From assembly GCF_000378605.1 (NCBI RefSeq), contig NZ_KB905158.1, forward strand, positions 124,001 through 188,000: 64,000 nt of DNA. Direction: 5' to 3'. The position numbers and the translations under genes are program-made. Under the pieces are notes generated by a model. That model was not told where the DNA came from, searched no databases, and was given only the letters and a program-made list of their open reading frames with translations. The stretch comes from Thioalkalivibrio sp. ALJ21. Its GTDB lineage: Bacteria; Pseudomonadota; Gammaproteobacteria; Ectothiorhodospirales; Ectothiorhodospiraceae. Positions 7,583-53,937 of this stretch are shown in pieces; positions within the stretch are counted from its first letter, which is position 1, and each line of letters starts with the position of its first letter.

Positions 7583-7609
7583 CTGCACACAAGCCGAGAG
7601 AGAGAGAAA

Positions 7610-8544: not shown

Positions 8545-8579
8545 CACTGCTGCGCGAGGTTCGCCGACCCCTTTATGGG

Positions 8580-8609
8580 TTGTCAATCGGGTTGACAGCA
8601 GGCTAAACT
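8580..8609 (+). promoter_or_regulatory. Promoter with palindromic operator
   Basis: TTGTCA (8580-8585), 18 bases, TAAACT (8604-8609) form a sigma70-like promoter. A perfect interrupted palindrome TGTCAA-TCGGG-TTGACA (8581-8597) covers the -35 region and spacer. Because the gene directly downstream encodes a ribbon-helix-helix-like protein, autoregulation through this palindrome is a reasonable inference. Confidence 0.5.
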
Positions 8610-8644
8610 GGGGGCTTCTTGAGCTAAAAACTGCGATCAATCAG

Positions 8645-8974: not shown

Positions 8975-8999
8975 GACCGAACATGTGCGCGTGACGGCA

Positions 9000-9015
9000 T
9001 CGTATGTGGTACGGT
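9000..9015 (+). promoter_or_regulatory. Shared motif site TCGTATGTGGTACGGT
   Basis: 11 of 14 informative positions; 40 bases separate it from ATG 9056. Confidence 0.5.
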
Positions 9016-9055
9016 GCTGTCACTCGTAACGTATCAATACGGACGGTCGCGCAGC

Positions 9056-10591: not shown

Positions 10592-10642
10592 CTCTAGCGC
10601 GGGGCAGCAAAAACAAACTACGCGCGCCATTTTATGCGGGAT

Positions 10643-10658
10643 GCGTAAGTGATACTAT
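10643..10658 (+). promoter_or_regulatory. Shared motif site GCGTAAGTGATACTAT (perfect)
   Basis: Matches all 14 informative positions and is followed by CAACGCAC, the downstream YGC element. It ends 30 bases before ATG 10689. Best single example of the motif. Confidence 0.75.
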
Positions 10659-10688
10659 CAACGCACTATTCTGGCAGGGAGTCTTGCT

Positions 10689-11744: not shown

Positions 11745-11952
11745 GGATCGAGATCTGCCTACCGAGACATCACACCATGCTCGGCAATGCTCGGCGTCAT
11801 TCTCAAGGCATCCTGATTTTTATGATGTGTTCATAAGTGATATGCTCTTGTTGTTCTAATTGCGGCTTCTGGGGGCGGCTTCCTCGATGCCCGATTCCAG
11901 CTGCTCATAAGGTTTTGGCTTAGCGCCAGACGTACAACCACAAGGAGGGGGC
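11745..11952. other. Promoter region and long leader of the GGDEF gene
   Basis: Contains the shared motif at 11831-11846; transcription from it would give a leader of about 250 bases before ATG 12108, much longer than for other motif-driven genes. I looked for a GEMM-type c-di-GMP riboswitch and did not find its conserved cores. The leader ends in the short ORF at 11953. Confidence 0.4.
11831..11846 (+). promoter_or_regulatory. Shared motif site TCATAAGTGATATGCT
   Basis: 12 of 14 informative positions. Lies 106 bases before the short upstream ORF and 261 bases before the GGDEF gene. Confidence 0.55.
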
Positions 11953-12114
11953 ATGCTCCTTCGGGCGTCACGCACCAACACATTCGGAATAAATCGGAGC
12001 GACTGCAGTGCTTATCGCTCAGAAAGGCGCCCGGCCGCGCCCGGCGGCATCTGCTGCATGCAGCTCCCAGGGGGATGCTTCCGAGGCACAAGAGGGGGTT
12101 CGACACCATGCTAG
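11953..12114 (+). CDS. Short upstream ORF (53 aa) overlapping the GGDEF gene
   Basis: ATG 11953 is preceded by AAGGAGGGGG, the strongest ribosome site of the area, and the frame runs to a TAG at 12112 that overlaps the ATG (12108) of the next gene as ATGCTAG. The peptide is arginine/cysteine/glycine-rich and not protein-like, which suggests a leader whose translation opens or blocks the start of the GGDEF gene rather than a functional product. Translational coupling is inference. Confidence 0.4.
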   Translation: MLLRASRTNTFGINRSDCSAYRSERRPAAPGGICCMQLPGGCFRGTRGGSTPC

Positions 12115-14501
12115 CCCGGGACGCACGCCCAGCTCGCGCCCTCAGCACGCGAGGCGCCACGCTCGCATTTGGCTCGCTTCTGTTTCTCGTAGCCGCCCTG
12201 ATGGTCTTCAGCCTCGCCCGCCTATCGAGCATTCATGCCGATATCGAATCCATCACGCATGGACACTCCGAGAAGTCATCTCTGCTGTCCGAAATGCACC
12301 TTTTCTCCACGCAAGGGCACAGCCAACTGCGGCCGATGCTTTCAGAGGACACTGGCCAGCTGCAGCGCGAGGCCCTCTATCTAGAATGGATGCGCTCTTC
12401 TGAGAAGCTTTCAGAGGCTGGGCGCGGTCTGTTTTCCCTGGATGCGACGAGTGACGAGCGCTCGCTCTTTGGTGCGCTTGAATCCGCAGTCGAGCGGGCG
12501 GCGTCTCTTCAGCGAGAGGTGGCAGAGCGGGCGATCGGCGGCGACCTAAAGGGTGCGTCAGAAATGATGCAAGAGCGAGCGATCCCGGCTCAGGGTGACT
12601 TAATCGCTCTTCTCGATGCGATCCAAGACACCCATTCGGGCTCCATTGCCGACAAAATCGATTCGGCCGGTTCGAGTTATGCGCTGGCAGCACTTCTGAT
12701 CGCTTCCGCAGGGGTGCTGTCGATTCTTCTCGGCGGGGGCGCCGGGCTTGCGGTTGCGTCTCGCCACAAACGAATCCGGAAGAGCCTTTCGGACTCAGCG
12801 GAGCAGCTCCAGTCAGTGCTGCATGCCATCTCTGAAGCCGTCATCACTACCGACACCTCGGGCCGTGTCGACCACATGAATCACGCGGCAGAGGCCATTA
12901 CCGGATGGCGCCTCGACGAGGCGAGAGGCCGCCAGGTCGGGAGTGTATTCTCGATCGTCTCGGAGGACACCGGCGCGCCGCTCATTCACCCCGTACTCGA
13001 GGAGATTCCCGACGGCGCCTTCTGCAGCTCCCTCTCGGGATCAATACTGCTCCGATCTCGCAATGGCCGCGAGCGCTCCATAGAGGACACCACGTCCCCC
13101 ATCCTGGACGAGAGCGGAGAGAAGATTGGCTCGGTTCTGGTGTTTCGTGACGTGACCGAATCCCGTGCCATGACTCGCGATCTTATGTGGGCTTCCACTC
13201 ACGACCGGTTGACCGGGCTGAAGAATCGCGACGTATTCGAAAGGCACCTTCGCGATGTTGTTGCCAGCGCCAAGACGACCAACCAGGAGCACGTTCTTCT
13301 TCTGGTCGACATCGATCAATTCAAGCTCATTAACGACTCTTTCGGGCACTCCGCTGGGGATGACCTCCTTCGGCAGCTCGCGCGCCGGTTGAAGGACCAG
13401 ATTCGCCCAGGGGACCTCTTCGCGCGCATGGGTGGCGACGAATTTGGAATCCTGATGACGGACGCGTCCCTCCCGGCAGCTCGGGAGTTCGCCAGCCACA
13501 TCCAAGCTGTTGCGGGCTCATTCAAGTTCGAGTGGGATGGGCAGAGCTTTGCCGTGGCCTTGAGCATCGGCATTGTCCCAATTCATGGCGACTACGGGTC
13601 GGCCGACCATTTCCTTACAAGAGCCGATGCCGCCTGCCACTCTGCAAAGCAGCACGGGCAAACGCAGATCCACATAGACCCCGCCTGGAACTCAACGCTG
13701 TCCGAGCGGAAAGAAGACATCGCCCGAATCCAGCGCATTCGAGATGCCGTTGACTCTCACCGGCTGTGGATTTTCGGACAAGAGATCTCACCTGTAAGCG
13801 GAACCTGGCCAGCTCCTCGCCATACGGAGATCCTTCTCCGGATGGTTACCGAGGATGGGCAGGTCCATGCGCCAGGGCAGTTCATTCCTGCCGCCGAGCG
13901 TTACAACCTCATGCCCATGATCGATCGATGGGTGATAACGCGGGTTATGAAGCACATCGCTGAGACAGGGGCGGCGTCTAGCGATCGATACGCGATCAAT
14001 CTGTCGGGGCAGTCGATTTGCGACCCGCAAATCCTTGAGTTCATCGTCGACCAGCTACGCAAGAACAGGGTTGATGCGTCAAGGGTTACGTTCGAGATCA
14101 CCGAGACCGCCGCTATAGAGAACATGCGGCAGGCTTCTCATCTTGTCCGCGTCCTTCGCCACCTTGGTTGCTCGTTTGCGCTCGATGATTTTGGCGCAGG
14201 GATGTCTTCATTCGGCTACCTCAAGGCGATGGAGGTTGACTACATAAAGATCGACGGAAGTTTCGTCAAGGACATCATCTCTGATCCGGTTAGCCGAGCG
14301 ATGGTGGAGAGCATCCACCATATCGGCCGAACCATCGGACTCAAGACTATCGCCGAATTCGTAGAGACCGACGACATCCTGGATGCCCTCAAGGATGTCG
14401 GGATTGATTACGCCCAAGGCTTCGGTGTCCATACGCCTGAGCCTCTTGAGGCTCCTCCGGTCCCTCTTTCTCAGCCGACCAAGTTCTCATCGGCCAGCTG
14501 A
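12108..14501 (+). CDS. Membrane PAS-GGDEF-EAL-type cyclic-di-GMP protein
   Basis: 797 residues from ATG 12108. Membrane segments at about 14-39 and 195-223 enclose a 150-residue periplasmic helical sensor. Then PAS (about 237-355, AISEAVITTDTSGRVDHMNH), GGDEF (about 365-525) with intact MGGDEF at about 441 and an RPGD inhibitory site five residues before it, and an EAL-type domain (about 560-780). The EAL motif reads EIL (TEILLR, about 573) but the catalytic Glu is kept, as are NLSGQS, FEITETA, LDDFGAG, YIKIDGSFV and QGFG. So both c-di-GMP synthesis and hydrolysis are possible. Placement 4 kb before the Pil-Chp operon fits control of surface motility or attachment. Possible translational coupling to the 53-aa upstream ORF. 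Confidence 0.9.
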   Translation: MLARDARPARALSTRGATLAFGSLLFLVAALMVFSLARLSSIHADIESITHGHSEKSSLLSEMHLFSTQGHSQLRPMLSEDTGQLQREALYLEWMRSSEKLSEAGRGLFSLDATSDERSLFGALESAVERAASLQREVAERAIGGDLKGASEMMQERAIPAQGDLIALLDAIQDTHSGSIADKIDSAGSSYALAALLIASAGVLSILLGGGAGLAVASRHKRIRKSLSDSAEQLQSVLHAISEAVITTDTSGRVDHMNHAAEAITGWRLDEARGRQVGSVFSIVSEDTGAPLIHPVLEEIPDGAFCSSLSGSILLRSRNGRERSIEDTTSPILDESGEKIGSVLVFRDVTESRAMTRDLMWASTHDRLTGLKNRDVFERHLRDVVASAKTTNQEHVLLLVDIDQFKLINDSFGHSAGDDLLRQLARRLKDQIRPGDLFARMGGDEFGILMTDASLPAAREFASHIQAVAGSFKFEWDGQSFAVALSIGIVPIHGDYGSADHFLTRADAACHSAKQHGQTQIHIDPAWNSTLSERKEDIARIQRIRDAVDSHRLWIFGQEISPVSGTWPAPRHTEILLRMVTEDGQVHAPGQFIPAAERYNLMPMIDRWVITRVMKHIAETGAASSDRYAINLSGQSICDPQILEFIVDQLRKNRVDASRVTFEITETAAIENMRQASHLVRVLRHLGCSFALDDFGAGMSSFGYLKAMEVDYIKIDGSFVKDIISDPVSRAMVESIHHIGRTIGLKTIAEFVETDDILDALKDVGIDYAQGFGVHTPEPLEAPPVPLSQPTKFSSAS

Positions 14502-14547
14502 ATTTCAAAACCATTCCACCAATCCAGCAGAGGCGGACACGTTCACA

Positions 14548-14712
14548 ATGTCAGATCAAAATCCAGCCCAGCCATCTCTATCGGATCTATTGAATTCGCG
14601 CGCGTCCGATCTCTCATCGGATCAGCTTCGGCACGCAGCCAGAGAGAAGGAGCGCCTGGAATTCACGCGCTCGAAGAAACGAGAAGACGGGGAGGCACCG
14701 GAGCATGTTTGA
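14548..14712 (+). CDS. Small hydrophilic protein (54 aa)
   Basis: ATG 14548 opens a 54-codon frame, MSDQNPAQPSLSDLLNSRAS..., a flexible N-terminus followed by a charged helix (QLRHAAREKERLEFTRSKKR). Its last 8 bases overlap the start of the membrane protein at 14705, so the two are translationally coupled. No family recognised. Too short to be sure, but the overlap and the soluble composition support it. Confidence 0.5.
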   Translation: MSDQNPAQPSLSDLLNSRASDLSSDQLRHAAREKERLEFTRSKKREDGEAPEHV

Positions 14713-15043
14713 TGGTAGTGGCGGAGTTGGATACCCGGCGCTGTTCTTTGTTGCGAGCTCGGTTGTGGCGTTCGTGTTCGCGTCGAGGCTGTTCGAGGGG
14801 CGGGCTGGCATTGCCCATCCGACCGCATACCTCGTGCCGCTTCTCGTGCTGGGTGTCGAGTTTTCCGTAACGGCCCTTTCTCATGTCGGGATCCCGCCGA
14901 GCCTCCTGCTGGACATGACGTTTGTTCCATCGGCCTTCTATTTGGCCGCTTGCGTCCTCTTCTTGTCGGTCCCGGTTCTACTGGGGTTTGTTCTTGCTGC
15001 TGCGCCTTTCTTTTCCAGGGCCGCGCATGGGGCGCCTTCCTGA
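14705..15043 (+). CDS. Small inner-membrane protein (112 aa)
   Basis: ATG 14705 with GGAG close upstream. Three hydrophobic segments (about 9-27 YPALFFVASSVVAFVFAS; 38-58; 72-105) predict a polytopic inner-membrane protein with almost no loops. Its stop overlaps the ATG of the next membrane gene (TGATG). Probably a partner of the 54-aa and 135-aa proteins around it. Family unknown. Confidence 0.6.
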   Translation: MFDGSGGVGYPALFFVASSVVAFVFASRLFEGRAGIAHPTAYLVPLLVLGVEFSVTALSHVGIPPSLLLDMTFVPSAFYLAACVLFLSVPVLLGFVLAAAPFFSRAAHGAPS

Positions 15044-15450
15044 TGGGTCTGCCGAGTAGCGACCACGAAGGAGTGGAAAGCCCGGACCGCGGCGAAGCCG
15101 GCCCTCATCTGCACGATGGTCCGCTTTGCGATGGGACCCCAGGGGCGCCGCCTCAGTCACTCAGGGAGGTCTTGGATGCCTCGGCCTCTTGGCGCCCCAA
15201 GGGGTGGGCTGAATGGTCGGCCATCGCCGCCCTAGCTCTAGCGGCCGCGTTTCAGCTCGCCGCAGGAATACCGGTGCCCTTTGTCGGGTTCTCGGTGGTG
15301 GCGTTCTGGATCACAGTCGCCTGCGTTCTCCCTTATCAGGGTTTGTCGGGGGAGTTGGCGTCTTTGCGCTCCCGCGGGTACTGGCTTTTGATAGGCGCAG
15401 CCTTGCTTGCTGCAGCAGTGCTCAACGCCATGGGGTATGGCGCCACTTAG
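15043..15450 (+). CDS. Inner-membrane protein with acidic N-terminal tail (135 aa)
   Basis: Start ATG 15043 overlaps the preceding stop. A 50-residue hydrophilic, acidic, proline/histidine-containing N-terminus is followed by three membrane segments (EWSAIAALALAAAFQLAAGI, FVGFSVVAFWITVACVLPY, GYWLLIGAALLAAAVLNAMG). Third gene of a compact operon (14548-15450), followed 43 bases later by the Tat-exported LolA-like gene. Function unknown. Confidence 0.6.
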   Translation: MGLPSSDHEGVESPDRGEAGPHLHDGPLCDGTPGAPPQSLREVLDASASWRPKGWAEWSAIAALALAAAFQLAAGIPVPFVGFSVVAFWITVACVLPYQGLSGELASLRSRGYWLLIGAALLAAAVLNAMGYGAT

Positions 15451-15493
15451 CCGCCCCGATTCCTTCGTTATCGCCTTTGGATTAAGAGCCGAC

Positions 15494-16342
15494 ATGACTG
15501 ACGCGCTATCCCGAAAAATCAATCGCCGGTCCCTTCTTGGGGCGGGCGCGGCTTTCTCGCTGGCAGCGAGTGCCCCTTTCGCTTTCGCCGGAGATCGCGG
15601 AGTGGTCCTCAGGTCCTCCATGCTGGAGCGGACGGTCCCTCGTGATAGCGTATTTCGCTGGCGCATGCGCATCGAGGATGGCGGAAGGGAGCAGGCCGAG
15701 CTTCGCTCGCTCACCGAATACCGAATCGATGACCCGGATCACGGTCGGCATCGAATTCTCCACTTTGACCAGCCTCGATTCATGTCCGGCACCACCTTGC
15801 TCGCCCGCAATCGGTTCGAAGGGGAGATGTCGTCGAGCGAGGCCGATCAGTCGGGCCTTTGGCTCATGATTCCGCCATCTACCCATCCTCGCCGAATCCG
15901 ACCAGAAGATCGTGGCTTCCAATTCATGGGGTCGGTATATGAGTACCAGGACTTTGTGATCCGCTCAACGCGACGCGATACGCACTGGATCCTTGGTGAG
16001 CACAACGTCAACGGCACATGGACCCAGGTTCTCGAGTCCATCCCCAGGGACATCAATGATTCCCCGTACACGAAGTGGGTTCGATATGTCGATGAAGAGA
16101 CACACGAACCCATTCAGATCGACTACTACCGGGGTCGAGAATCCCCTGTGAAGCGCTATCGCGTCCTGGAGCGCGAACGCGTGGGGCCTTACATCATTCC
16201 GGCTGTCTCCGAAATGGAAAGCTTCGAAGGGAATGGGCGAATGACTCTGGAGATCGTCTCAGCTGATATCAACGCAGGATTGGATCCTGAGATGTTCATG
16301 CCGGGATCGCTCGCAAGGCTATCCGATCTAGCCCCGGGGTGA
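15494..16342 (+). CDS. Tat-exported LolA-like outer-membrane lipoprotein-sorting family protein
   Basis: 282 residues from ATG 15494. A twin-arginine signal (NRRSLLGAGAAFSLAASAPF, cleaved near AFA-GD) directs export of a folded protein. The mature part fits the LolA-like family annotated as outer-membrane lipoprotein-sorting protein, often found near RND-type exporters: FRWRMRIEDGGREQAELR (early strand), ...SGLWLMIPPSTHPRRI, FMGSVYEYQDF (a form of the usual GSDFSYEDF), TKWVRYVDEETHEPIQIDYY and VSEMESFEGNGRMTLEIV. A Tat rather than Sec signal is unusual for the family. No RND gene lies nearby. Confidence 0.7.
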   Translation: MTDALSRKINRRSLLGAGAAFSLAASAPFAFAGDRGVVLRSSMLERTVPRDSVFRWRMRIEDGGREQAELRSLTEYRIDDPDHGRHRILHFDQPRFMSGTTLLARNRFEGEMSSSEADQSGLWLMIPPSTHPRRIRPEDRGFQFMGSVYEYQDFVIRSTRRDTHWILGEHNVNGTWTQVLESIPRDINDSPYTKWVRYVDEETHEPIQIDYYRGRESPVKRYRVLERERVGPYIIPAVSEMESFEGNGRMTLEIVSADINAGLDPEMFMPGSLARLSDLAPG

Positions 16343-16614
16343 TCTCGGGCGGTGGCGGCGTGAACGCCCGGGCACCGTAGCGGGTGTCACGATAAGGGGC
16401 GATATAGTTCCGTTTGTGATCGTTTATAGTCATCGGTTATTTCTTCCGGTTTGCGGGAATACGTGCTCGCCATGGCCTCATCTCAGGGCCGCCACAAGCC
16501 CCGCCTTGCGAACCCTGATCGAAATAGCAGTCGGCCCAGCCCGGCCTTGGCCTAGCAGTATTTATCGCCTACAAATCAACCCGATATGATCGATCCCCCT
16601 GGGGCCTTTTGCCG

Positions 16615-16644
16615 CGCGGAGGGAGGGCGCTCGCCCCCTCCGCG
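16615..16644. terminator. Strong GC hairpin upstream of pil promoter
   Basis: CGCGGAGGG (16615-16623) and CCCTCCGCG (16636-16644) form a perfect 9-bp stem, further pairing inside. No T-run follows on either strand; it may insulate the pil-chp promoter from upstream transcription. Confidence 0.35.
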
Positions 16645-16685
16645 TCGACGATGCGAGCTTCGAAGAGAGGCATAATCTCCCTGTA

Positions 16686-16713
16686 TTTACAATCCATTCC
16701 CTTCCTGTATAAT
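16686..16713 (+). promoter_or_regulatory. Sigma70 promoter of the pil-chp operon
   Basis: TTTACA (16686-16691), 16 bases, TATAAT (16708-16713) with a TG just before the -10. It is the best conventional promoter in the window and differs clearly from the shared GCGTAAG type. Confidence 0.6.
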
Positions 16714-16843
16714 TTCTAGACGTTGCGTAAGAGATGCTGCCTATGCTCGATGAGTCGACACGGGTTGCCGCGCAAGATTGGGGCTCCGGGTATTCGACGC
16801 CCGGCGCCTTCCTTCAACGAAGCAAATAAATCAGGGGTTCAGG

Positions 16844-17266
16844 GTGTCTGACGCGCTTAACGGATCCGGTCTTGGTGCTGAGTTCCAGGGCTTCAAGGTC
16901 ATGGTAATTGACGACAGCAAGACCATTCGCCGAACAGCAGAGTCTCTGCTGCAAAAACATGGCGCCGAAGTGATCACCGCTGTTGATGGATTCGAGGCTT
17001 TGTCCAAGGTCGCGGAGCAGCGGCCGGGCATCATCTTTATTGACGTAATGATGCCTCGCCTCGATGGATACCAGACGTGCGCCCTGATCAAGAACAACCG
17101 GGAATTCCGGTCTACCCCAATCATCATGCTGTCCAGCAAAGACAGTGTTTTCGACAAGGCCAAGGGTCGGGTTGTTGGGTCTGAGGACTACCTGACCAAG
17201 CCCTTTGCGAAAGAAGACCTGCTCGGTGCAGTTCGAAAATACGCCTCCCTGGCGTCACCGCGGTAA
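16844..17266 (+). CDS. pilG: PilG, type IV pilus response regulator
   Basis: 140 residues from GTG 16844 (pseudomonad PilG is about 135); the longer upstream frame is not PilG-like. A single receiver domain: acidic pocket VIDDSKTIRR, phospho-acceptor Asp in IIFIDVMMPRLDGYQTC, SSKD (Ser switch) and SEDYLTKPF (Lys). In Pseudomonas PilG acts with the ChpA kinase to promote pilus extension through the cAMP/FimV/PilZ network. First gene of pilGHIJ-chpA-chpC, transcribed from the TTTACA/TATAAT promoter. Confidence 0.9.
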   Translation: MSDALNGSGLGAEFQGFKVMVIDDSKTIRRTAESLLQKHGAEVITAVDGFEALSKVAEQRPGIIFIDVMMPRLDGYQTCALIKNNREFRSTPIIMLSSKDSVFDKAKGRVVGSEDYLTKPFAKEDLLGAVRKYASLASPR

Positions 17267-17311
17267 AACGCTCCAACTCACAAAACAACAAAAGTAAGGA
17301 AAAGCAAGATC

Positions 17312-17677
17312 ATGGCGCACATCCTTATCATTGATGACTCACCCACCGAAATTCATGTTCTCCGGGGAATCCTGGAGAAGAATGGCCACTCCGTCATTAC
17401 CGCTTCGAGTGGAGAGGAAGGCGTTGCGGTAGCGAAAGAGAAGGTTCCGGACCTGGTCCTGATGGATGTTGTGATGCCGGGCCTCAATGGCTTCCAGGCA
17501 ACACGTCAAATTGCCCAGGCGGCTGAGACAGCCGAAGTCCCTGTGATCGTGGTAAGCACGAAGGATCAGGCAGCCGACCGCGTTTGGGCTATGCGTCAGG
17601 GGGCGAAGGAGTACATCACCAAGCCTGTGGTCGAGAAGACCTTGATGGCCGCAATCAATAAGCAATTGGCCGCATGA
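17312..17677 (+). CDS. pilH: PilH, type IV pilus response regulator
   Basis: 121 residues, ATG 17312 with TAAGGA upstream, the same length as PilH of pseudomonads. Receiver domain with LIIDDSPTEIHVLRGILEKN, phospho-Asp in LVLMDVVMPGLNGFQATRQI, VSTKDQ and KEYITKPV. PilH opposes PilG, acting on retraction or as phosphate sink for ChpA. Overlaps pilI by four bases (ATGA). Confidence 0.92.
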   Translation: MAHILIIDDSPTEIHVLRGILEKNGHSVITASSGEEGVAVAKEKVPDLVLMDVVMPGLNGFQATRQIAQAAETAEVPVIVVSTKDQAADRVWAMRQGAKEYITKPVVEKTLMAAINKQLAA

Positions 17678-18252
17678 GCTTCAACGCCACCACCCCGTAT
17701 GGGTTGCTTGCCGACCTCGATGCTGCAGGCCGGCAGGTCAACCGCGATCTTCGCAGGGACATCGGTGTCGGCTGGCGTGGCGTTTTGCTGCGCGTGGGGA
17801 GCTTTCGTTTCCTGGTCGACATGGACTCGCTCTCTGAGGTCACCGACCCAATGCCGCTGGCGAACGTCCCCCTTGCGGGGGCGGGCGTTCTCGGCATCGG
17901 CAATCTTCGCGGTCTTGTTCTTCCGGTCTTCGATATGAGCCAGCTCTTGCTGGGGGAGCCGCTACCGGAGGATAAGGCCAATCGGCGCGTGGTTGTGGCG
18001 CCGCAGGGCTCGGGGATGGCTGGGCTACTGGTGAGCCAGGTTGAGGGGATGCGACGGTGCATCCCCTCTCAGCGGCGCCGGGAGGCTGACGCCCCCGAGA
18101 CCGCGATGCCATTCATTACAGGCGGATTTGATTTGGGTCACCGCCTTCATCCGGTCCTAGACCTGGATCTCTTTCTAAGTGACAGCAATCGCTTTTCTGG
18201 CGACCTAATCGCCGGTTTTTCTGATAACGAACAGCCTGCCGCGGTCGCCTAA
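17674..18252 (+). CDS. pilI: PilI, CheW-like coupling protein
   Basis: 192 residues, start overlapping the pilH stop. CheW-like fold: [60 protein letters not shown], then [20 protein letters not shown] and [20 protein letters not shown]. PilI couples the chemoreceptor PilJ to the ChpA kinase. Length and order match the pilGHIJ arrangement. Confidence 0.9.
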
Positions 18253-18292
18253 ATCAACCGTCTGGCCCCGAAGTGAGAGGGAGTATCAACCA

Positions 18293-20380
18293 ATGGTAGT
18301 GAGTCGTCGCAAACGGAATTCTGTCCTCGGGGGCATGCTTGCCGCCTCCCTTATTGTAACGGGCGGAGCATTCACCTATCACCAATACGAGCAGGGCCAG
18401 TACCGTGACCGCACGGCGCTCGCGAACGACATGCGCCTCCTGTCCCAGCGCATCGCGACGAGCTCGCTTGAGGCCGCCGGCGGTTCCGAAAGAGCGTTCG
18501 AGAACCTCGAGAGCCTGAGGGACGGATTCCAGGCGCGTCTCAACCACTTGCAAGAGGGCGGCGGAGGCCTGAAGCCTCTCCCGGCAGCTCTTCAAGAAGA
18601 GTTTTCTGGAGTAAGTGGCGAGTGGTCGAGCTACCTCGGAGGGGTTAACGCCGTCCTTCGTGGCCAATCCAGCATCGAGATGATGGGCATGTATTCGGAA
18701 GCCGTGGAGATGTTCTCGCCGGAACTTTCTCGGCTGTCTGATGACGTTGTCCGTCGCATGTCGAGCGTCGGTGCGGATCCTGAGCAGGTTTACATCGCGT
18801 CACGGCAAACGCTCCTGGTTCAGCGCATCGAGAACAGCCTCAGCCAGGTGCTCCGCGGCGGGGCCGAAGCGGAGGCCGCGATTGAGCGGTTTGAGCGGGA
18901 TGCCACCCTTTTTGGGCGTGTACTGGATGGCCTGATCGAGGGGTATGACGAGCTCGGCGTTGAAGCGGTTGATGATGCCCGCGTGCAGGCCTTCCTTCAG
19001 GAGTCGGCGACCGTCTTTATTGCGTTCAGTGAGGCGGTTGCGGGGGTCCTTGAAGCGTCGTCTGCCGTCCTTGAGGTGAGCGCTGCGGCGTCGAGCATCG
19101 AGGCCAGCAGCGCAGGGATGCTCGATGTCACGAGCGCCCTCGAGTCAGGTATTGCGCGCGAGGCCGACTCGCTGAGCTCGATCGCTGCGGTCGGGTATGC
19201 GACCGGCGGCCTGGCCTTCCTGTTGCTGATTGCTCTCGGTCTCTTGCTGCACCGTGACACTCGCCGGGAACTCGCTCAAACCGAGGCCCAGAATGAGCGA
19301 AACAATATGGCGATCGTTCAGCTTCTCGACGAGATGGCGAATCTTGCTGACGGGGATCTGACCGTGAATGCCACGGTTAGTGAGGACTTCACTGGAGCCA
19401 TCGCAGACTCGATGAACTTTGCAATCGAGAACCTGAGAAGCCTGGTGTCGACGATCAACAAGGCCTCCGCTGACATCAACGATTCGTCCTCCGCTACTCG
19501 CTCCCAGGTTCTTGGGTTGGCTGAGAAATCGGAAGAACAGGTGCGCGAAATCCAGCAGGCGAACGCCGCTATCGACGACATGAGTCAGTCGGTTAACAAG
19601 GTTGCGGAGGATGCCGGGCAGTCGGCCCAGGTGGCACGAAACTCGGTGGAGATCGCGTCCAAGGGGGCGGCCACGGTGCGTCGCTCGATCGAGGGGATGG
19701 ATACCATCCGCGAGCAGATCCAGGAGACCGCGAAACGGATCAAGCGCCTGGGCGAATCCTCGCAGGAGATCGGCGACATCATCGGGCTGATCAACGACAT
19801 CGCCGAACAGACCAACGTGCTTGCGTTGAACGCGGCGATCCAAGCCTCGGCCGCAGGCGAGGCGGGCCGTGGGTTTGCGGTGGTGGCGGACGAAGTTCAG
19901 CGTCTCGCGGAACGTTCCTCTAGCGCCACCCGTCAGGTTGAGGGTCTGGTCAAGGCGATCCAGGCGGATACGAGTGAGGCGGTCAGCTCCATGGAGCAGA
20001 GTACCGCGAACGTGGTTCACGGGGGCGAGCTTGCCCAGGCGGCCGGCAAGTCACTCGCCGAGATCGAACAGGTTTCCTCTGATCTGGCGCAGCTCATTGA
20101 CGGGATCTCTTCCTCCGCCCGCAAACAGTCCGTGATGGCCAAGGATGTGAGTGGGATTATGTCCAGCATTCGCGAGATCAGCTCGGAGACTGCCCAGGGT
20201 ACACAGTCCACGGCTGCTGCCATGGGGGACCTCACGGATCTCTCGGCGAAGCTGCGCTCGTCCGTATCCGACTTCAAACTTCCGGACACGGATACTACGG
20301 AGCCAGCAGCACCTGAAGGCACGGGTTCTTCTGCATCGAGCAACGACGAGATGACGCCTCCCGCTTTGAAGCGGGCCTAA
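18293..20380 (+). CDS. pilJ: PilJ, methyl-accepting chemoreceptor for twitching
   Basis: 695 residues (P. aeruginosa PilJ about 682), ATG 18293 with GGGAG nine bases upstream. Membrane segment near 10-30 ([20 protein letters not shown]), a large periplasmic region (about 30-300) with PilJ-type helical repeats and [10 protein letters not shown], second membrane segment about 303-322 ([17 protein letters not shown]), HAMP-like stretch, then the MCP signalling hairpin with tip [20 protein letters not shown] and [15 protein letters not shown]. Senses surface contact, probably via pilin, and drives ChpA. No methyltransferase gene (pilK) follows. Confidence 0.92.
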
Positions 20381-20395
20381 CGACGGGGCTATTTG

Positions 20396-23300
20396 ATGGC
20401 ATCCAGCGCACTGAATTGGGTCCGTGATGAACTGCTTACGCTCTTTGGCGAAGTTCAGGAATCGTTGCGGCACTACTCCGAGAACATGGAGCGAAAGGGT
20501 GACCTGGCTGAGGCCAGGGCCCGGGTTGAACAGATCCGGAACACACTCGTTGTCGTTCAGGTAGATAACGGGGTCTTGATCTGTGACGAGATGATCCAGG
20601 TTTTCGGTCATCTCGAGCAGCTGGAAGGGGGAGACTGGGCAGCTACGGAGGCGCTGTTGCGCGCCTCCATGCAGCTCCCGGACTATCTCGATAGCGAGAG
20701 CGATGGGCTTCTCCCGTCCCCCATGAATCTGGCGCCGGTGCTTACAGACCTTCGCGCAAGCAGGGGCGCCCCCCTGCTCCTGGATGCCGCCTCGCTTGTC
20801 GCGGATGCGCCGAGCCTTAAGGATGATGTGATCGTTTCGGAGGGAGATGGACTCCCGCCTGAAGCCCGCATCGGAGCCCTTCAGGATGTGCGCCGCGATT
20901 TCCAGCGTGACCTCCTGACCTTTGTTCGCGATGACAGCCCGGAAGGCGCTGCCGTCCAGATGCAGGAGAGCATGAAGGCGGCTGTGAAGTTGTGCCCACC
21001 CGGCGACCCCCGTCAGCTGTTCTGGATCGCTGACGCGCTGTTCGAGTGCGTCGCACGAGGCGAGCTCAAGGTTGGCACCGATTTGCGCCGGGTGGTTGGT
21101 CATATTGACCGCGATCTCAAGCGCTACATCGAGATTCTAAAAGAGCATGTGGAGCAGGGCGGGGGGGCGTCTGAGCCTGAGTATGCGACTCCGAACGACC
21201 TTACCAAGACGTTGCTCTTTCATGTGGCGTCCGCGCGATCGGAGGGCGAGCAGTCGCGGGCGGTGCGGCGGGCGTTTGGCCTCAATGACGATGCAGAGCA
21301 TGTCGGCCGCGAGGTGTATGACAGCCTCCGCCAGGCCATCGAGGAGGACCTTTCTGATCTGCGCGAGCGGATGGATATCTTGCTTCGCTCACCGCAGCGG
21401 AACGTAGACGATCTCGAAGCCATTCAAAGTCGGGTGTCTCGCATCGGATCCACGTTCAGCATTCTTGGCTCCGATGAGGGGCGGGATCTAACGGATAAGC
21501 TGACCCAGGCGCTGAGCCCGGATCACGCTGGCGAGGCGAGCGGCCAGCACGACATGGTATTGGCTGAGCATCTACTGGCCCTGGAGTCCCTTCTCGAAGC
21601 CGGCCTGCATCGGCGTAGTGCGAGTGGATCGCGCGATGAGACTGGATTCGATGAATCGCTCGCGACAGTGATCTACAAAGAAGCGCTTTCCGATGTCCGG
21701 CAGGTGCGGGATACGTTCTTGAGCTTCCTTTCATCCTCGGCTGGCAGCGAATCCGGCGACGGACTGAGCGGAGCGATTGAAGGCCTCCGCCGGATCATGG
21801 GCGCGATGTCGATGTCTGGTTTCGAGACGCTCCATGCGCTCTTGGCTCCGCTGACTCAGTATCTCGATCAGCGGGCGCCGCAATCAGCTGGCGACCTGAG
21901 CGAAGATGAAATCGAAGCTCTGGCGGAAGTGCTGATCAGCATTGAGGTTGCCCTGGAATCCTCCGGGCAGCCCTGGCGGGAGCTGGACAGCGTTCACGAA
22001 CGAGGCATCGAGGCGCTGCAGCGCCTTGGGGCCATTTCCGTCGCGGCCGATGGCCAAATTGCCATGCAGCACGACACGAACGAAGGGGCCAGCGACGATC
22101 ATGGCGTCGAGGCCGAGATCCCCGAGGTCGACGATGCAGTAGAGACCCTCGAGGCTATTGAGATCACCGAGGTAGCGGATGGCGACACCGAGATCGAGGG
22201 GGTTGCTGACGCCGGCAGCGAGCTCGAGGCCGCCCCTGAAGATGATGCGCTGGCTTCTCCTGTTGAAGAGGCATCGGATGCCCTCGAGGCCGAGGCGCTA
22301 GAGCTACCGGCTGATCCTGCCATCGATGAATCCGCCGAATCCGTAGAGGCAACCGATGAGCCTCCCAAGGGCCGCGGCCTGTCGGACGCATTCAATGAGG
22401 AAATCCTTTCTCAAGAGGTTCGCGGACTCGATGCGGACCTGGAAATCCTCGAGATTTTCATTGAAGAGGCTGACGAAGAGGTGGCAGGCCTGGGCGAGAA
22501 CTTCCCCCGCTGGAAGAGTAATCCGTCCGATCTTGACACCTTGGCTGTGATCCGTCGCTCATTCCACACCCTCAAGGGCTCCGGACGCCTGGCGGGCGCC
22601 CTGCGCCTTGGTGAGTTTGCCTGGGTCGTTGAGTCATACATGAATCGCATTCTCGAGCAAAAGGCGCCCGTGGATGCGGATTGCCTCCAGGCGATCGAAG
22701 ACGCGGTCAGCGTTCTTCCGGGTCTTGTGGACGAGGTTCGCGCCAACGCTCAACCGACGGTTCCCATCCTGGATATCGCCCTGCGCCTGAGCGCTCTGAT
22801 CGCTGGGGAGCGCATTGAGGCTACGCCGTCGCCGAAGCGGGATACCGCGGCTGCTCCGGTCGAGCCTGAAGGCGACGCGGGCATGGAGAAGGCAGAAGAA
22901 GGCCTCGATGTTGCCGACTCGAAAGGCGAGGGCGGCATTGAAGCCGACAAGCCGGGCGCCGAAGAGCAAGAAGATCGGGCCGACCTCGACAATGCCGTAT
23001 CCGACCTGGAGTCGGAGGCCGAACTCGACGACCTGGTGGCCGAGTGCTCCATCGGTGCGGAAGAGGGCACCCAGATCGAGACGGAGAACGTCCCCGAATC
23101 CTCACTCGAGGCACCAGATGCAAGCGGGTTCGAGGTGAGTTTCGAGTCTGTCGACTTGGGTGAAGAAGAACTCTCTGTCGACGACGAGCAGGCCACCGAG
23201 ACATCAGAAGCCCTCGAAAGCGCCGTCGAGCACGAGATTGACGAACAGCTATGGGCGGTTTTTTGTGCGGAAGCCCAGGTTCATCTGCTTACGCTGCGTT

Positions 23301-26224
23301 CGTGGCTCGACGACGCCGCAATGCACCCGGACCGAATCCCGAACAATGACGTCGAGCGAGCCCTTCACACCCTTCACGGCAGTGCCCGGACGGCAGAGGT
23401 CGGCGGGGTGTCCGCGGTTTGTGGTCCGTTTGAACGCATCGTACGAATTCATCGTGACGTGGAGACCCCGCTGTCATCGGAAGCGGTGGGTTTGCTTTGC
23501 AAGCTTGAGTCCTACGTCACCGAGGTCGTTGCGAATGAGGAGCCTGACCTCGAAAACGTGGTGAACCCCCCGGGGTGGGCTGGCGAGGTCTTCGATCTCC
23601 TGGATCAGGCGAGCGCGATTCAGGTGCTCAATTCCTGCGACTCCATGGAGGCCCAGCTCGCAAGGTACGAGGACGCCTTTAGCGCTGAGGACCCGGCCTC
23701 TAGCTCCGAACTTCCAGAAGCCGGGTCCGATGATGCGGAGGCTGGCGAAGTGGCCGCGCCCGCTCTCGAGGCGGATCATGAGATTGAGCAGTGTCCAGCC
23801 GCAGAACCCGAGCAGGCTCCCGAGGCATCGGGAGACCCTGAGTGTGAGATTGACTGGGAGTTTGGGGAAGTCTTCATTGAGGAAGCGGCGGACATTCTCG
23901 AGGGCGCCTTTGAGTCCCTAGGTGGGTGGCGTGACTCGGGCGGTCTGCCCGGGCCCGATCAGAACACTTTCCAGCGTGAGATCCACACCCTCAAAGGGAG
24001 TGCACGCATGGCGGGCTTTACGGTTGTCGGCGCTATCGCGCACGCCCTTGAGAGCGCTATGAGCATTGAGGCGGAGCGGGATCCTCGCGAAGGATTCTTC
24101 CCCCTCATTGAGCGGGCCCTTATGGATGTCCAGCAGCTTGTGGAGCGGGGCATTGGCTCTTGGCAAATGGACGAGGCCAGCAGTCAGTCCTTGATGGCGC
24201 TTCGTGAGTGGGCCGATGGCAATCCGGACAGCGGAGCTGATGCCACTGTGGCGGATGAAGATGCCGTCACCTCCGAGGCTGAAGCTGAAGGCGAACATGC
24301 TGACGATGCCGGTCAGGCCGAGGACTCGGGCAGCGCCCAGGAAGATGTGTCGCCCGCCAAGTCCCCGTCCGGGGAAGGGCGCCGCCTGCAGGAACAGGTC
24401 CGAATGGACGCCGACACCCTGGACGCCCTTATCGGGAACGCTGGGGAGCTATCAACGTTCCATCGTCGGTTCGAGCAAGGCATTGGGCGTGTCGAATCTC
24501 AAGCGGAGGAGCTGGGCCGAACCATCGCTCGCTTGCGGGAGCAGCTGCGCAAACTTGAGATCGAGACCGAGGCGCAGATTCTGTTCCGCGTGGAAGAGGA
24601 AAGTGGTGACGAGGCCATTGATTTTGACCCTCTGGAAATGGACCGCTATTCCGGTATCCAGCAGCTGTCTCGTTCGCTAGCCGAGAGCGTCAGCGACCTG
24701 GAAGCGCTTAAGCAGGATGTTGGCAATGAACTCCAGAGCGCCGGAGCCGTGCTCCTCCAGCAGCGCCGCATAGGAACGGATCTGCAGGATCAGCTCATGC
24801 GCCAGCGTATGGTCCGCTTCTCTCGGATGGTGCCGCGCCTGCAGCGTGTGGTTAGCCAAGCGGGGCAAGATCTGAGCAAGCCGGTCCGGATTGAATTTAC
24901 AGGCCAAGGGGCCGAGCTTGACCGAGCCCTTCTAGAGCGCCTGGTGCCGCCCATGGAGCACCTCCTTCGCAACGCGATCGCCCATGGCATCGAGGACAAG
25001 GGCGGACGCTCGAAGGCGAAAAAGCCGAATGAAGGCTTGATCCGTGTGAGCCTGAATCAATCTGGGGGCGAAATTCGCCTGCAGGTGGAAGACGACGGGA
25101 AGGGGATCGATGCTGAAGCCATCCGTCGGCGAGCGGTCGAGCGAGGGCTTCTCGCGTCGGATGCTGAGATCTCTGACGCACAGGCTCTGCAGTTGATTCT
25201 ACAGCCTGGTTTCTCTACGGCTAGCGAGGTGTCACAGGTTGCCGGTCGCGGCGTTGGCCTGGATGTCGTTAACAGCGACGTCAAGCAGCTGGGCGGGACC
25301 CTCGATATCCATTCAACCCCAGGAGAGGGCTCGCGGTTCACAATGCGGCTGCCCTTTACCCTCGCCATCTCGCAGGCTCTCTTGGTTCAGGTCGGCGAAG
25401 AGACCTTTGCCGTTCCGCTGGGGTCGGTCCAGGGCGTTGTTCGCGGCCGTAAAGACGAAATCGAGTACGAGAGCGGCTCTCCAGTCTACAGCTATGCTGG
25501 CCAGGACTTTACAGTTCGAGGGCTCGGTGAGCTGATGGGCGTCGAAAGCCAGGCGACTGCGGACGACCTCCCGGATCACGCGTTCCCGATGCTCCTCGTC
25601 AATTCGGACGAGGGCGGCATGGCCCTAAGGGTTGACGCCCTACATGGAAGCCAAGAGGTCGTCGTGAAGTCGGTAGGCCCGGTCCTGAGCCGAATCCCCG
25701 GGGTGGCTGGCGCAACCCTTCAGGGCGATGGCTCCGTCATGCTGATTCTCGACCTTGGCATGCTTATGCGATTCGCCACAGCGTCAATGGCGGAGTCGAT
25801 CGCTGCGGGATCCACCGAGCGCGCGCCACAGGCCACAAAGGCACCGGACACGCGGCGCGTCATGGTGGTCGATGACTCCATCACCATTCGCAAGGTGACC
25901 GCTCGACTCCTGAGTCGACACGGGTTTGATGTGGTCACCGCGAGAGATGGGCTCGACGCCCTGGGAATGCTTGAGGAGCAACGCCCAGACGTCATTCTCC
26001 TCGATGTGGAGATGCCGCGAATGGATGGGTTCGAGTTCGCAACGCATGTTCGTGAGCATGCGGAATTGGGGGCTACGCCGATCATCATGATCACCTCGCG
26101 CAGCGGCAGCAAACACCGCGACCGCGCCGAGCGTATCGGCGTCAATGACTATCTCGGAAAGCCATACCTTGAGGGGGACCTGATGTCGTCCATTAACGAG
26201 CAACTGGAAGGGGTTTCAGCGTGA
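20396..26224 (+). CDS. chpA: ChpA/PilL, multi-HPt CheA-type hybrid histidine kinase
   Basis: 1942 residues from ATG 20396 (a TTG directly before is in frame), shorter than P. aeruginosa ChpA (about 2480). N-terminal 560 residues are helical, FimV-like/HPt-derived without a His motif; then acidic linkers. Canonical HPt sites HTLKGS at about 722, HTLHGS at about 990 and HTLKGS at about 1195. CheA core: dimer/H-like helices about 1330-1500, N box LLRNAIAHGIED (about 1523), G boxes DDGKGID (about 1566) and GRGVGLDV (about 1617), CheW-like regulatory domain (about 1660-1800), and a C-terminal receiver with VVDDSITIRK and Asp in LLDVEMPRMDGF (about 1869). Integrates PilJ signals and phosphorylates PilG/PilH. 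Fewer HPt sites than pseudomonad ChpA. Confidence 0.93.
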   Translation: MASSALNWVRDELLTLFGEVQESLRHYSENMERKGDLAEARARVEQIRNTLVVVQVDNGVLICDEMIQVFGHLEQLEGGDWAATEALLRASMQLPDYLDSESDGLLPSPMNLAPVLTDLRASRGAPLLLDAASLVADAPSLKDDVIVSEGDGLPPEARIGALQDVRRDFQRDLLTFVRDDSPEGAAVQMQESMKAAVKLCPPGDPRQLFWIADALFECVARGELKVGTDLRRVVGHIDRDLKRYIEILKEHVEQGGGASEPEYATPNDLTKTLLFHVASARSEGEQSRAVRRAFGLNDDAEHVGREVYDSLRQAIEEDLSDLRERMDILLRSPQRNVDDLEAIQSRVSRIGSTFSILGSDEGRDLTDKLTQALSPDHAGEASGQHDMVLAEHLLALESLLEAGLHRRSASGSRDETGFDESLATVIYKEALSDVRQVRDTFLSFLSSSAGSESGDGLSGAIEGLRRIMGAMSMSGFETLHALLAPLTQYLDQRAPQSAGDLSEDEIEALAEVLISIEVALESSGQPWRELDSVHERGIEALQRLGAISVAADGQIAMQHDTNEGASDDHGVEAEIPEVDDAVETLEAIEITEVADGDTEIEGVADAGSELEAAPEDDALASPVEEASDALEAEALELPADPAIDESAESVEATDEPPKGRGLSDAFNEEILSQEVRGLDADLEILEIFIEEADEEVAGLGENFPRWKSNPSDLDTLAVIRRSFHTLKGSGRLAGALRLGEFAWVVESYMNRILEQKAPVDADCLQAIEDAVSVLPGLVDEVRANAQPTVPILDIALRLSALIAGERIEATPSPKRDTAAAPVEPEGDAGMEKAEEGLDVADSKGEGGIEADKPGAEEQEDRADLDNAVSDLESEAELDDLVAECSIGAEEGTQIETENVPESSLEAPDASGFEVSFESVDLGEEELSVDDEQATETSEALESAVEHEIDEQLWAVFCAEAQVHLLTLRSWLDDAAMHPDRIPNNDVERALHTLHGSARTAEVGGVSAVCGPFERIVRIHRDVETPLSSEAVGLLCKLESYVTEVVANEEPDLENVVNPPGWAGEVFDLLDQASAIQVLNSCDSMEAQLARYEDAFSAEDPASSSELPEAGSDDAEAGEVAAPALEADHEIEQCPAAEPEQAPEASGDPECEIDWEFGEVFIEEAADILEGAFESLGGWRDSGGLPGPDQNTFQREIHTLKGSARMAGFTVVGAIAHALESAMSIEAERDPREGFFPLIERALMDVQQLVERGIGSWQMDEASSQSLMALREWADGNPDSGADATVADEDAVTSEAEAEGEHADDAGQAEDSGSAQEDVSPAKSPSGEGRRLQEQVRMDADTLDALIGNAGELSTFHRRFEQGIGRVESQAEELGRTIARLREQLRKLEIETEAQILFRVEEESGDEAIDFDPLEMDRYSGIQQLSRSLAESVSDLEALKQDVGNELQSAGAVLLQQRRIGTDLQDQLMRQRMVRFSRMVPRLQRVVSQAGQDLSKPVRIEFTGQGAELDRALLERLVPPMEHLLRNAIAHGIEDKGGRSKAKKPNEGLIRVSLNQSGGEIRLQVEDDGKGIDAEAIRRRAVERGLLASDAEISDAQALQLILQPGFSTASEVSQVAGRGVGLDVVNSDVKQLGGTLDIHSTPGEGSRFTMRLPFTLAISQALLVQVGEETFAVPLGSVQGVVRGRKDEIEYESGSPVYSYAGQDFTVRGLGELMGVESQATADDLPDHAFPMLLVNSDEGGMALRVDALHGSQEVVVKSVGPVLSRIPGVAGATLQGDGSVMLILDLGMLMRFATASMAESIAAGSTERAPQATKAPDTRRVMVVDDSITIRKVTARLLSRHGFDVVTARDGLDALGMLEEQRPDVILLDVEMPRMDGFEFATHVREHAELGATPIIMITSRSGSKHRDRAERIGVNDYLGKPYLEGDLMSSINEQLEGVSA

Positions 26225-26706
26225 CGGAGGAAGCGAACAATCAGTCTCTCGAGGCGGTCATCGTCCAGCTCGATAATGGCTCGATCTTGCTTCCTCGGAG
26301 CGCCTTTCTGGAGGTCTCGACGCGGCCGGGCGGGGCGAACACCGATCGCCAGAACGACTCCAGGGGCTGCATGGAGCCCGACTTCACCTGGCAAGATCTC
26401 GATATTCCCGTGGTGAATGTCTCCCGATTGCTTGACCCCGATCAGGCAGAGGGGACGGTTGGAAAGCGCAACCGCTTCACACGCCTCCTGGTGATGCAGT
26501 CGATCGCGAACACGGAATCGCTCCCTTTCTACGCACTGGAAGTGAAGGGTACCCCGCACCCTGTGCAGATTACGCCCCAGAACATCCAGGGCCTGGGCGA
26601 GGCGGACTCGACCCCTTGGTCCTGGCGCGTAAGGGCCTCCGGCGTTACCTCCCACCTCCTTCGTCTAGATGCGATCGAGGAGCACATTCTGGCCACGGCT
26701 GGGTAG
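26221..26706 (+). CDS. chpC: ChpC, second CheW-like coupling protein
   Basis: 161 residues from GTG 26221, overlapping the chpA stop (GTGA). A reduced CheW-like domain: AVIVQLDNGSILLPRSAFLE, FTWQDLDIPVVNVSRLLDPD, RFTRLLVMQSI, FYALEVKGTPHPVQITPQNI. Matches ChpC, the accessory CheW homologue at the end of chp clusters. The methylesterase gene chpB, normally between chpA and chpC, is absent, in line with the missing pilK. Confidence 0.82.
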   Translation: MTEEANNQSLEAVIVQLDNGSILLPRSAFLEVSTRPGGANTDRQNDSRGCMEPDFTWQDLDIPVVNVSRLLDPDQAEGTVGKRNRFTRLLVMQSIANTESLPFYALEVKGTPHPVQITPQNIQGLGEADSTPWSWRVRASGVTSHLLRLDAIEEHILATAG

Positions 26707-29764: not shown

Positions 29765-30529
29765 ATGACCCGGAGCCCACTTCGCTCGGTAGTGATTTCT
29801 TTGGCGCTAGCCGCCGTGACATCGTCGGCCACATTGTCGATTGCCCACTCTAGCGACGGATCTGAAGCGCCGGATGCCGTCATGAGCCTCCTCTCCTCTT
29901 TGTCCAGGGACGCGACCCCAGATAGGGTCGTGAAAAGCCCGATTGCGGGGCTGTACGAGGCTCATTATGGCGCCGACATCCTGTATGTCGACGCAGCAGG
30001 TGAGCACGTTATTGAGGGGCCCATTCATGAGCCAGGGACCGGTCGCAATCTAACCAAGGAGAGCGCGAACTCGATCAGGCGAGATCTGTTCGATCGGATC
30101 CCCGAGAGCGAGATGGTGATCTTCGAGCCTAGCGGCGACGTGAACGGCCAACTCACGGTATTCACGGATCCGGCCTGCCCATATTGCCAAGCCCTACATG
30201 GGGACCTTTGGGAGTATATGGATGCCGGCATTCGGATCCGCTATCTCATGTACCCCCTGGTTGGTCGAGATTCCCCGGAGCTTATGGATGCGATCTGGTG
30301 CAGCGATGACCCCACACGGATGATGAACCGAGCCAAGTCCTCTGGAAGTCGTGGCGCCAATTTGCGCGCGGACGCCTCCTGCGATTCTCCTCGGGAGAAC
30401 CATATCGCCCTGGGTAAAGCCCTTGGCGTCACCGCTACGCCGGCCGTTGTCACCCATGAGGGCGACATGCTCCAAGGTTATGCGCCTGCGCACGAAATGA
30501 TCGACCGCATGGGCCCCATGGAGCCTTGA
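29765..30529 (+). CDS. DsbC/DsbG-type periplasmic thiol-disulfide isomerase
   Basis: 254 residues, ATG 29765 with GAGG five bases upstream. Signal peptide to about residue 28. N-terminal dimerisation-like region (AVMSLLSSLSRDATPDRVVK, SPIAGLYEAHYGADILYVDA), then a thioredoxin fold with CPYC at 138-141 in VFTDPACPYCQALHGD and a cis-proline loop GVTATPAVVTHEGDMLQGY. Typical DsbC has CGYC. Likely repairs disulfides in exported proteins; the cysteine-rich exported protein at 3684 is a candidate client. Lies just upstream of the putative small RNA. Confidence 0.82.
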   Translation: MTRSPLRSVVISLALAAVTSSATLSIAHSSDGSEAPDAVMSLLSSLSRDATPDRVVKSPIAGLYEAHYGADILYVDAAGEHVIEGPIHEPGTGRNLTKESANSIRRDLFDRIPESEMVIFEPSGDVNGQLTVFTDPACPYCQALHGDLWEYMDAGIRIRYLMYPLVGRDSPELMDAIWCSDDPTRMMNRAKSSGSRGANLRADASCDSPRENHIALGKALGVTATPAVVTHEGDMLQGYAPAHEMIDRMGPMEP

Positions 30530-30578
30530 GTGGGGGGGCAGAGAGGGAGTGGGCTCCAGAGGGGTTGGCAACGTAGTT

Positions 30579-30594
30579 GCTTAACAGATATACT
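30579..30594 (+). promoter_or_regulatory. Shared motif site GCTTAACAGATATACT, no gene downstream
   Basis: 11 of 14 informative positions followed by GCGTGC. The near-identical TAACAGATATACT core also precedes the Sel1 gene at 54027. A terminator follows after about 75 bases, so this promoter seems to serve a non-coding RNA. Confidence 0.55.
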
Positions 30595-30600
30595 GCGTGC

Positions 30601-30695
30601 TGCTGGAACCTCCATCTCCGGCATGCAGACTGAGGACTCCTCCACTCTCCTTTGGTCTCCTCTCTTTTGCCCCGCATCATGTGCGGGGCTTTTTT
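30601..30695 (+). ncRNA. Putative small RNA with repeated CUCC tracts
   Basis: Bounded by the shared promoter motif (predicted start about seven bases after TATACT) and the terminator at 30669-30695, giving about 95 nucleotides with no credible ORF. The middle is pyrimidine-rich with several CTCC/CTCCT repeats that could pair with AGGAG ribosome sites. Alternatively the segment is just the 3' UTR and terminator of the upstream dsbC-like gene. Exact ends are inferred. Confidence 0.45.
30669..30695 (+). terminator. Rho-independent terminator
   Basis: GCCCCGCA / TGCGGGGC 8-bp perfect stem, 5-base loop, six T residues. The clearest terminator in the window. Confidence 0.85.
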
Positions 30696-30739
30696 ATGCC
30701 GTTAGGCCAGGTTTGCGGGCCCGGCCTGTCGCAGTAATT

Positions 30740-30819: not shown

Positions 30820-31302
30820 ATGACCAAGCTTGGAATTTCGGCGGCCCTGATCTCCATCATCGCTCTGGCCGCACCCGCTGCGGCCCATGAGGACCATAAT
30901 GCCCTTGAGTTTGACCGCCTATCTCATCTGGCGGCGGATGGCGATGCTGGCGCCATGTTTGCGCTCGGGCGCATGCACGAGCGCGGCCGCGGCACGTACG
31001 CTAGCGTGACCGAAGCGCACCGCCTGTACCTGAAATCGGCCAACGAAGGCTTTCCTGGCGCTATGGCGGCCGTCGGGCACAACTACCTCGAGGGGGTAGG
31101 GGTGAACCGGAATGCGAGCCTGGGCATGCACTGGATCCAGCGTGCTGCGGATGGGGGCCACCTCCGATCGCAGGTCTGGCTGGCTTCGTCGTCCGCACCC
31201 AGGGATGTCACCTCTCATTACGCCAAAATGGCGGAGAGTCAGCACGAAACGCCCGCGGGAGCCCGTTGCGAGAGCCCGCTTTCGCTGGCTTCGGGGTGGT
31301 GA
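30820..31302 (+). CDS. Secreted Sel1-repeat protein
   Basis: 160 residues, ATG 30820 with AAGGA ten bases upstream. Signal peptide MTKLGISAALISIIALAAPA, cut near AAA-HE. Sel1 repeats: GDAGAMFALGRMHERGRGTY, SVTEAHRLYLKSANEGFPGA, AVGHNYLEGVGVNRNASLGM-HWIQRAADGGH. The last repeat is close to that of the 54027 protein (LGMHWMQRAADAGH), marking these as paralogues. Followed 13 bases later by the family-1 gene at 31316. Confidence 0.8.
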   Translation: MTKLGISAALISIIALAAPAAAHEDHNALEFDRLSHLAADGDAGAMFALGRMHERGRGTYASVTEAHRLYLKSANEGFPGAMAAVGHNYLEGVGVNRNASLGMHWIQRAADGGHLRSQVWLASSSAPRDVTSHYAKMAESQHETPAGARCESPLSLASGW

Positions 31303-53921: not shown

Positions 53922-53937
53922 TCGTAACAGATATACT
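53922..53937 (+). promoter_or_regulatory. Shared motif site TCGTAACAGATATACT
   Basis: 11 of 14 informative positions followed by ATGTGC; 89 bases before ATG 54027, leaving an AT-rich leader of about 80 bases. Confidence 0.6.

Follow-up and report, generated by a model that had tools for sequence, protein, structure and literature searches.

The locus and its setting

The locus lies between dsbC, which encodes a DsbC-like disulfide isomerase, and a gene for a Sel1-repeat protein (Table 1). It is part of a stretch of 64,000 nucleotides from Thioalkalivibrio sp. ALJ21 (the window), which corresponds to bases 124001–188000 of the 289,720-base contig C4 in a 2.96-Mb genome of five contigs. C4 is probably a plasmid, because its last 80 bases are identical to its first 80 and it encodes a KorB/ParB protein, with 53–54% identity to the versions on Halomonas plasmids. 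The terminal overlap falls inside a coding repeat with a 27-base period; outside the window, a coding repeat with the unit TGGTTGCCACCACCACCGCCGCCGCCT is found at both ends of C4. The locus had no DNA similarity to any plasmid record searched. Elsewhere in the window, at 16778–26706, the probable plasmid has a signalling cluster of the chemotaxis/pili type, recognised by eye, with genes for a response regulator, a CheW-like protein, a methyl-accepting protein and a CheA-like hybrid kinase of 1943 aa.

Table 1. Features of the locus and further copies of the promoter motif, in positions of the window
Feature	Position	Strand	Basis or remark
dsbC, DsbC-like disulfide isomerase, upstream gene	29765–30529	+	PF10411, PF13098
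Promoter: -35 TTGGCA (30565–30570), 18-bp spacer, -10 TATACT (30589–30594)	30565–30594	+	sequence, sigma70-like
Predicted small RNA, about 95 nt	30601–30695	+	promoter–terminator spacing, covariance-model match; 5' end inferred, 7 nt after -10
5' hairpin with CU-rich loop, UGCUGGA-ACCUCCAUC-UCCGGCA	30601–30623	+	predicted fold
Remodelled middle hairpin GAGGA...UCCUC, inner CC/GG	30632–30662	+	predicted fold, covariance-model alignment
Conserved core GGACTCCTCCACTCTCCTTTGGT	30634–30656	+	21/23 identical to relatives
U-rich stretch before terminator	30662–30668	+	sequence
Intrinsic terminator GCCCCGCATCATGTGCGGGGC TTTTTT, 9-pair stem and T6	30669–30695	+	sequence; homologous stem covaries in relatives
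Sel1-repeat protein, signal-peptide-like N terminus, downstream gene	30820–31302	+	PF08238
Second motif copy	6190–6205	+	about 43 bp before Sel1-repeat gene 6248–6664
Third motif copy	53922–53937	+	about 89 bp before Sel1-repeat gene 54027–54533

An earlier note on this DNA had described a motif promoter followed by a terminator with no gene between them, and this description held. The motif, GCTTAACAGATATACT (30579–30594), has the -10 hexamer as its 3' end, and the -35 and -10 hexamers of the predicted sRNA match the consensus at 10 of 12 positions. No credible ORF was found in the interval: a 71-aa GTG frame runs across the terminator and, on the minus strand, a frame of 76 aa overlaps dsbC.

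A promoter motif restricted to three Sel1-repeat genes

The 13-base core of the motif, TAACNGATATACT, is specific to the replicon: it occurs three times in the genome, always on the + strand of C4, and was absent from 46 other family genomes. Each site is located upstream of one of the exactly three Sel1-repeat genes of C4, whose proteins share 32–39% identity over their aligned parts. At the Sel1 gene 30820, the sRNA and its terminator intervene between motif and gene, and the simplest account would be that the sRNA ended up downstream of a plasmid-specific promoter of the Sel1 type. The 'regulon' of the motif would then consist of the Sel1 genes of the replicon and the sRNA. A one-mismatch version of the motif, TAAGTGATATACT, is present outside the window at C4:230786 (window +106786), 46 bp before an ATG of a non-Sel1 frame of 143 aa.

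Structure of the predicted RNA

The terminator, seven of whose nine pairs are G-C, had been singled out as the best in the window, and it did rank first as a stem-plus-T-tail in the parts scanned (1–20000 and 22000–60000), where two more 9-pair stems had poor T tails. Taken as classes, sites resembling promoters or terminators were no commoner than in shuffled sequence; therefore, a promoter or a terminator alone proves nothing.

The several CUCC tracts reported previously were also found, and they are far more frequent than in shuffled sequence: six CTCC occur in about 68 nt, compared with a mean of 1.8 in dinucleotide shuffles, of which 0.06% contained at least six, and only 0.003% of the 68-nt segments of the contig reached that number. 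The conserved core holds two anti-Shine-Dalgarno segments, ACUCCUCCA and CUCUCCUUU, and the predicted GAGGA/UCCUC hairpin, which takes the place of a CC-CCA/UGG-GG hairpin in the family described below, would display the CU-rich core as its loop. The U-rich stretch before the terminator and the terminal U run are a possible Hfq contact. The fold of the 95-nt RNA was better than those of all 200 shuffles (z = -4.4; z = -1.9 with the terminator removed), and no competing antiterminator appeared in the predicted folds.

Homology to a conserved family and to a copy on the chromosome

The homologue search proposed in the earlier note was carried out and led to the core in related genomes, followed by a covarying terminator. 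When the interval was compared with 58 related genomes by BLAST, there was no overall match, and a single 23-base piece matched at 21 of 23 positions at one site in about 16 genomes; each of the sites inspected was located between promoter-like sequence and a terminator. A scan of 84,980 genomes for the exact core GACTCCTCCANNCTCCTTTGG returned 68 stretches, one of them in a Prevotella bin, which is probably a chance match. The others belonged to gammaproteobacterial or to unspecified proteobacterial or bacterial genomes, with taxa including Thioalkalivibrio, Thiomargarita, Chromatiales, Thiotrichales and Acidiferrobacteraceae. A G-C-rich stem and a T run directly follow the core in all but a few of these stretches, and the terminator stem of the relatives covaries, with changes on both sides in seven of eight pairs.

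A covariance model (R1) was built from 40 exact-core stretches with the window left out. It matched 30635–30697 with 37.0 bits, a chromosomal copy in the same genome with 69.2 bits, and nothing else in that genome above 22.4 bits. The E-values of the window match (1.5e-8 in the window, 7.1e-7 genome-wide) are rough, and the argument for homology rests on the gap between 37 and 22 bits together with the 21/23 core. R1 matches were present in 46 of 47 genomes of the family, including all 38 well-assembled ones, and in 131 of 369 sampled genomes of the class. The proposal of a small RNA candidate is thus strongly supported, since homology to a conserved sRNA family is the decisive evidence.

Because the same genome keeps a standard chromosomal copy (69 bits), the window copy is, judged by sequence, a second, diverged paralogue of a conserved chromosomal RNA. 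The chromosomal copy (G000:C2:93921-93980, locus L133) resembles the window copy in the core (21/23), the 5' hairpin and the terminator. It differs in its promoter, in its intact UCCUCCUUUGGUGG hairpin, in its site before a sensor-kinase gene, and in the loop of the 5' hairpin, which is C6 where the window copy has a CU-rich loop in the corresponding place. The pattern GACUCCUCCA-NN-CUCCUUUGG followed by a terminator is present in the window copy, while the middle hairpin of the family is not kept, two outer pairs of five being broken. The upstream element TTGACA...TATTAGAA, seen in many relatives, is absent from the window copy, which has TTGGCA-18-TATACT with TTAACAGA in its place.

No orthologue of the window copy was found with R1 elsewhere among the 47 family genomes; secondary matches in G003, G021, G005, G015, G022 and other genomes were rejected as 3'-end or terminator hairpins of other genes. 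Neither the core nor its variant matched the viral contigs searched.

Several further arrangements were observed among the relatives. A tRNA gene is found no more than about 1.3 kb from the standard copy in many gammaproteobacteria (loci L149, L151, L155, L157, L158, L160, L169, L170 and L171). At two Thiotrichaceae loci (L035, 5898–6056; L164, 1281–1560) the core is arranged in tandem in up to three copies, with one terminator defective. At loci L134 (1556–1614, minus strand) and L135 (1527–1585, minus strand), a hairpin ACCACCCCTTCCTCCTTTGGTGGT with a terminator directly follows the stop codon of a gene whose 148-aa product looks secreted and, as a guess by eye, may be DsrE-like; this hairpin is a possible 3'-end-derived relative of the sRNA.

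Relation to known small RNAs

No Rfam family matched in the window at gathering thresholds. Several CU-rich Rfam sRNAs matched weakly, among them SorY and mmgR. The alphaproteobacterial CUCCUCCC anti-Shine-Dalgarno sRNAs likely act on the same principle, by blocking ribosome sites, and showed no significant match to the window RNA in sequence or structure. The nearest family was RF02278 ('Betaproteobacteria toxic small RNA'), with 30.6 bits (E 0.005) and an alignment that covers only the terminator and one CUCC. Since this score is below the gathering score of 50, the window RNA is not a formal RF02278 member. Gammaproteobacterial relatives (L103–L174 tested) scored up to 48.5 bits against the same cut-off, and RF02278 looks under-annotated in gammaproteobacteria on the basis of these sequences. 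An open-access literature search found no description of the sRNA from gammaproteobacteria or Thioalkalivibrio.

The RNAs of RF02278, which include the double-hairpin RNAs ncS03, ncS05, ncS27 (bdhR1) and ncS62 of Burkholderia cenocepacia, have CUCCUCCA in common with the window RNA and share with it the short length, a CU-rich hairpin loop, a terminator and the occurrence of several copies per genome. The window RNA differs from them in being gammaproteobacterial, in its extra 5' hairpin, in its probable plasmid location and in its rebuilt middle hairpin: of its two hairpins, the second is the terminator with its U run, and the first is built from other pairs than that of RF02278. The CU-rich regions of the B. 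cenocepacia RNAs are predicted to cover ribosome sites, and overexpression of ncS27 slows growth (PMC5688073).

A further likeness, compared by description, is to S17 of Bordetella pertussis, which has a 3' terminator and CU-rich sites through which it represses mRNAs by pairing near the ribosome site. S17 is Hfq-dependent; 91-92 genes were up on its deletion, 70 of the raised genes show complementarity to S17 at the ribosome site or close to it, and direct pairing was proven for one target by compensatory mutations (PMC11722255). In contrast to the window RNA, S17 is BvgA-regulated and is made as a long transcript, from which RNase E produces the stable short form S17S (PMC11722255). S17 is barely toxic.

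Hfq and candidate targets

Hfq is encoded in the genome (PF17209, E 1.1e-28). The target search suggested in the earlier note was performed on C4, with 248 gene starts predicted by a home-made gene caller. In a scan for contiguous helices, ribosome sites were preferred over control regions, but the reversed RNA was equally good. Among the best matches were the 5' regions of C4:160171 and C4:209610. Because the reversed core letters do as well, the preference is not evidence of tuned targets and reflects CU-richness. Full-length duplex energies against the same gene starts were uninformative, as long duplexes ignore the RNA's own structure.

The matches did not establish that the RNA shares a regulon with its targets: the motif marks three Sel1 genes, and a good ribosome-site match was found in one only. 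This gene, 54027, ranked 7th of 248 for the RNA match at the ribosome site, while the other two ranked 140th and 200th. Its ribosome site GGAGACUAAA pairs over 10 bp (one G-U) with the RNA segment UUUGGUCUCC, which differs from the chromosomal copy. With three genes tried, Sel1 gene 54027 as a target is a lead only.

Interpretation and alternative explanations

Taken together, 30601–30695 very probably encodes a trans-acting sRNA, namely a second, diverged version of a double-hairpin anti-Shine-Dalgarno RNA that is conserved in gammaproteobacteria. The sequence elements, the homology of core and terminator, the standard chromosomal copy and the specificity of the motif are observed at the locus and in its relatives. 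For the window RNA we infer expression, the 5' end, Hfq binding, targets and repression, the mechanism being modelled on work on its relatives S17 and ncS27. The RNA would be transcribed from its own sigma70-type promoter, the spacer and -10 of which are common only to the three Sel1-repeat genes of the replicon, and the transcript would end at its own terminator. Its CU-rich segments (the ACCUCC of the 5' loop, ACUCCUCCA and CUCUCCUUU of the core, and GGUCUCCUC) would base-pair, probably together with Hfq, with mRNAs at their purine-rich ribosome sites and block their translation. Such action of CUCC tracts on ribosome sites, as previously suggested, is strongly supported by analogy, through the family homology and the published betaproteobacterial relatives.

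It is unlikely that the short RNA is mainly processed from the 3' end of the dsbC mRNA, with the motif promoter minor or silent. In its favour, no further terminator was detected from dsbC to 30669, the relative S17S is itself cut from a longer RNA by RNase E, and the related hairpin of L134 and L135 directly follows a stop codon; against this, the expected 5' end is preceded at 7 bp by a promoter with 10 of 12 matches, the 13-mer of which recurs at two other promoter regions of the replicon and in no relative's genome. The earlier note had regarded transcription solely by read-through from dsbC as fatal to the sRNA. By analogy such read-through would not refute it, because with S17, too, RNase E cuts a longer transcript to yield the stable short form.

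A transcription attenuator in place of a trans-acting RNA, in which a controllable terminator would sit in the leader of Sel1 gene 30820, is quite improbable. The motif stands directly before the other two Sel1 genes, and the copy upstream of 30820 plausibly served that gene until the sRNA intervened, but the homologues of the core and terminator are free-standing sRNAs with differing downstream genes, and the folds show no antiterminator that would compete. That the window copy is a duplicate of the chromosomal sRNA in decay and without function seems just as doubtful. The strong divergence outside the core, the partial loss of the family hairpin and the failure to find this copy in other family genomes would fit decay; however, the core is kept at 21/23 despite its changed flanks, and the promoter, the terminator and the new hairpin around the core are all intact. 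Convergence of an unrelated RNA on a CU-rich anti-Shine-Dalgarno sequence is hardly credible. Short CU-rich tracts are cheap to evolve and several Rfam CU-rich sRNAs match weakly, but here 23 nt and a terminator agree in order and spacing and 37 bits are well clear of the genome background of 22 bits.

Beyond the identification of the locus as a diverged sRNA copy, a more far-reaching scenario, which we consider rather unlikely, is that the plasmid captured a copy of the host's conserved anti-Shine-Dalgarno sRNA and that this copy, with a rebuilt hairpin and additional CUCC tracts, was put behind the plasmid-specific promoter shared with the Sel1 genes. Through this RNA the plasmid might then impose silencing at the level of translation, or rewire it, for genes of the host and of its own, Sel1 gene 54027 among them.

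In conclusion, these analyses point to a widely conserved gammaproteobacterial sRNA family, notably in sulfur oxidisers, that is just missed by the betaproteobacterial model of Rfam. A single genome with a standard chromosomal copy and a diverged, probably plasmid-borne copy would provide a natural pair for studying how anti-Shine-Dalgarno RNAs choose their targets, and the same pair would be suited to asking whether plasmids use such RNAs on the translation of their hosts.
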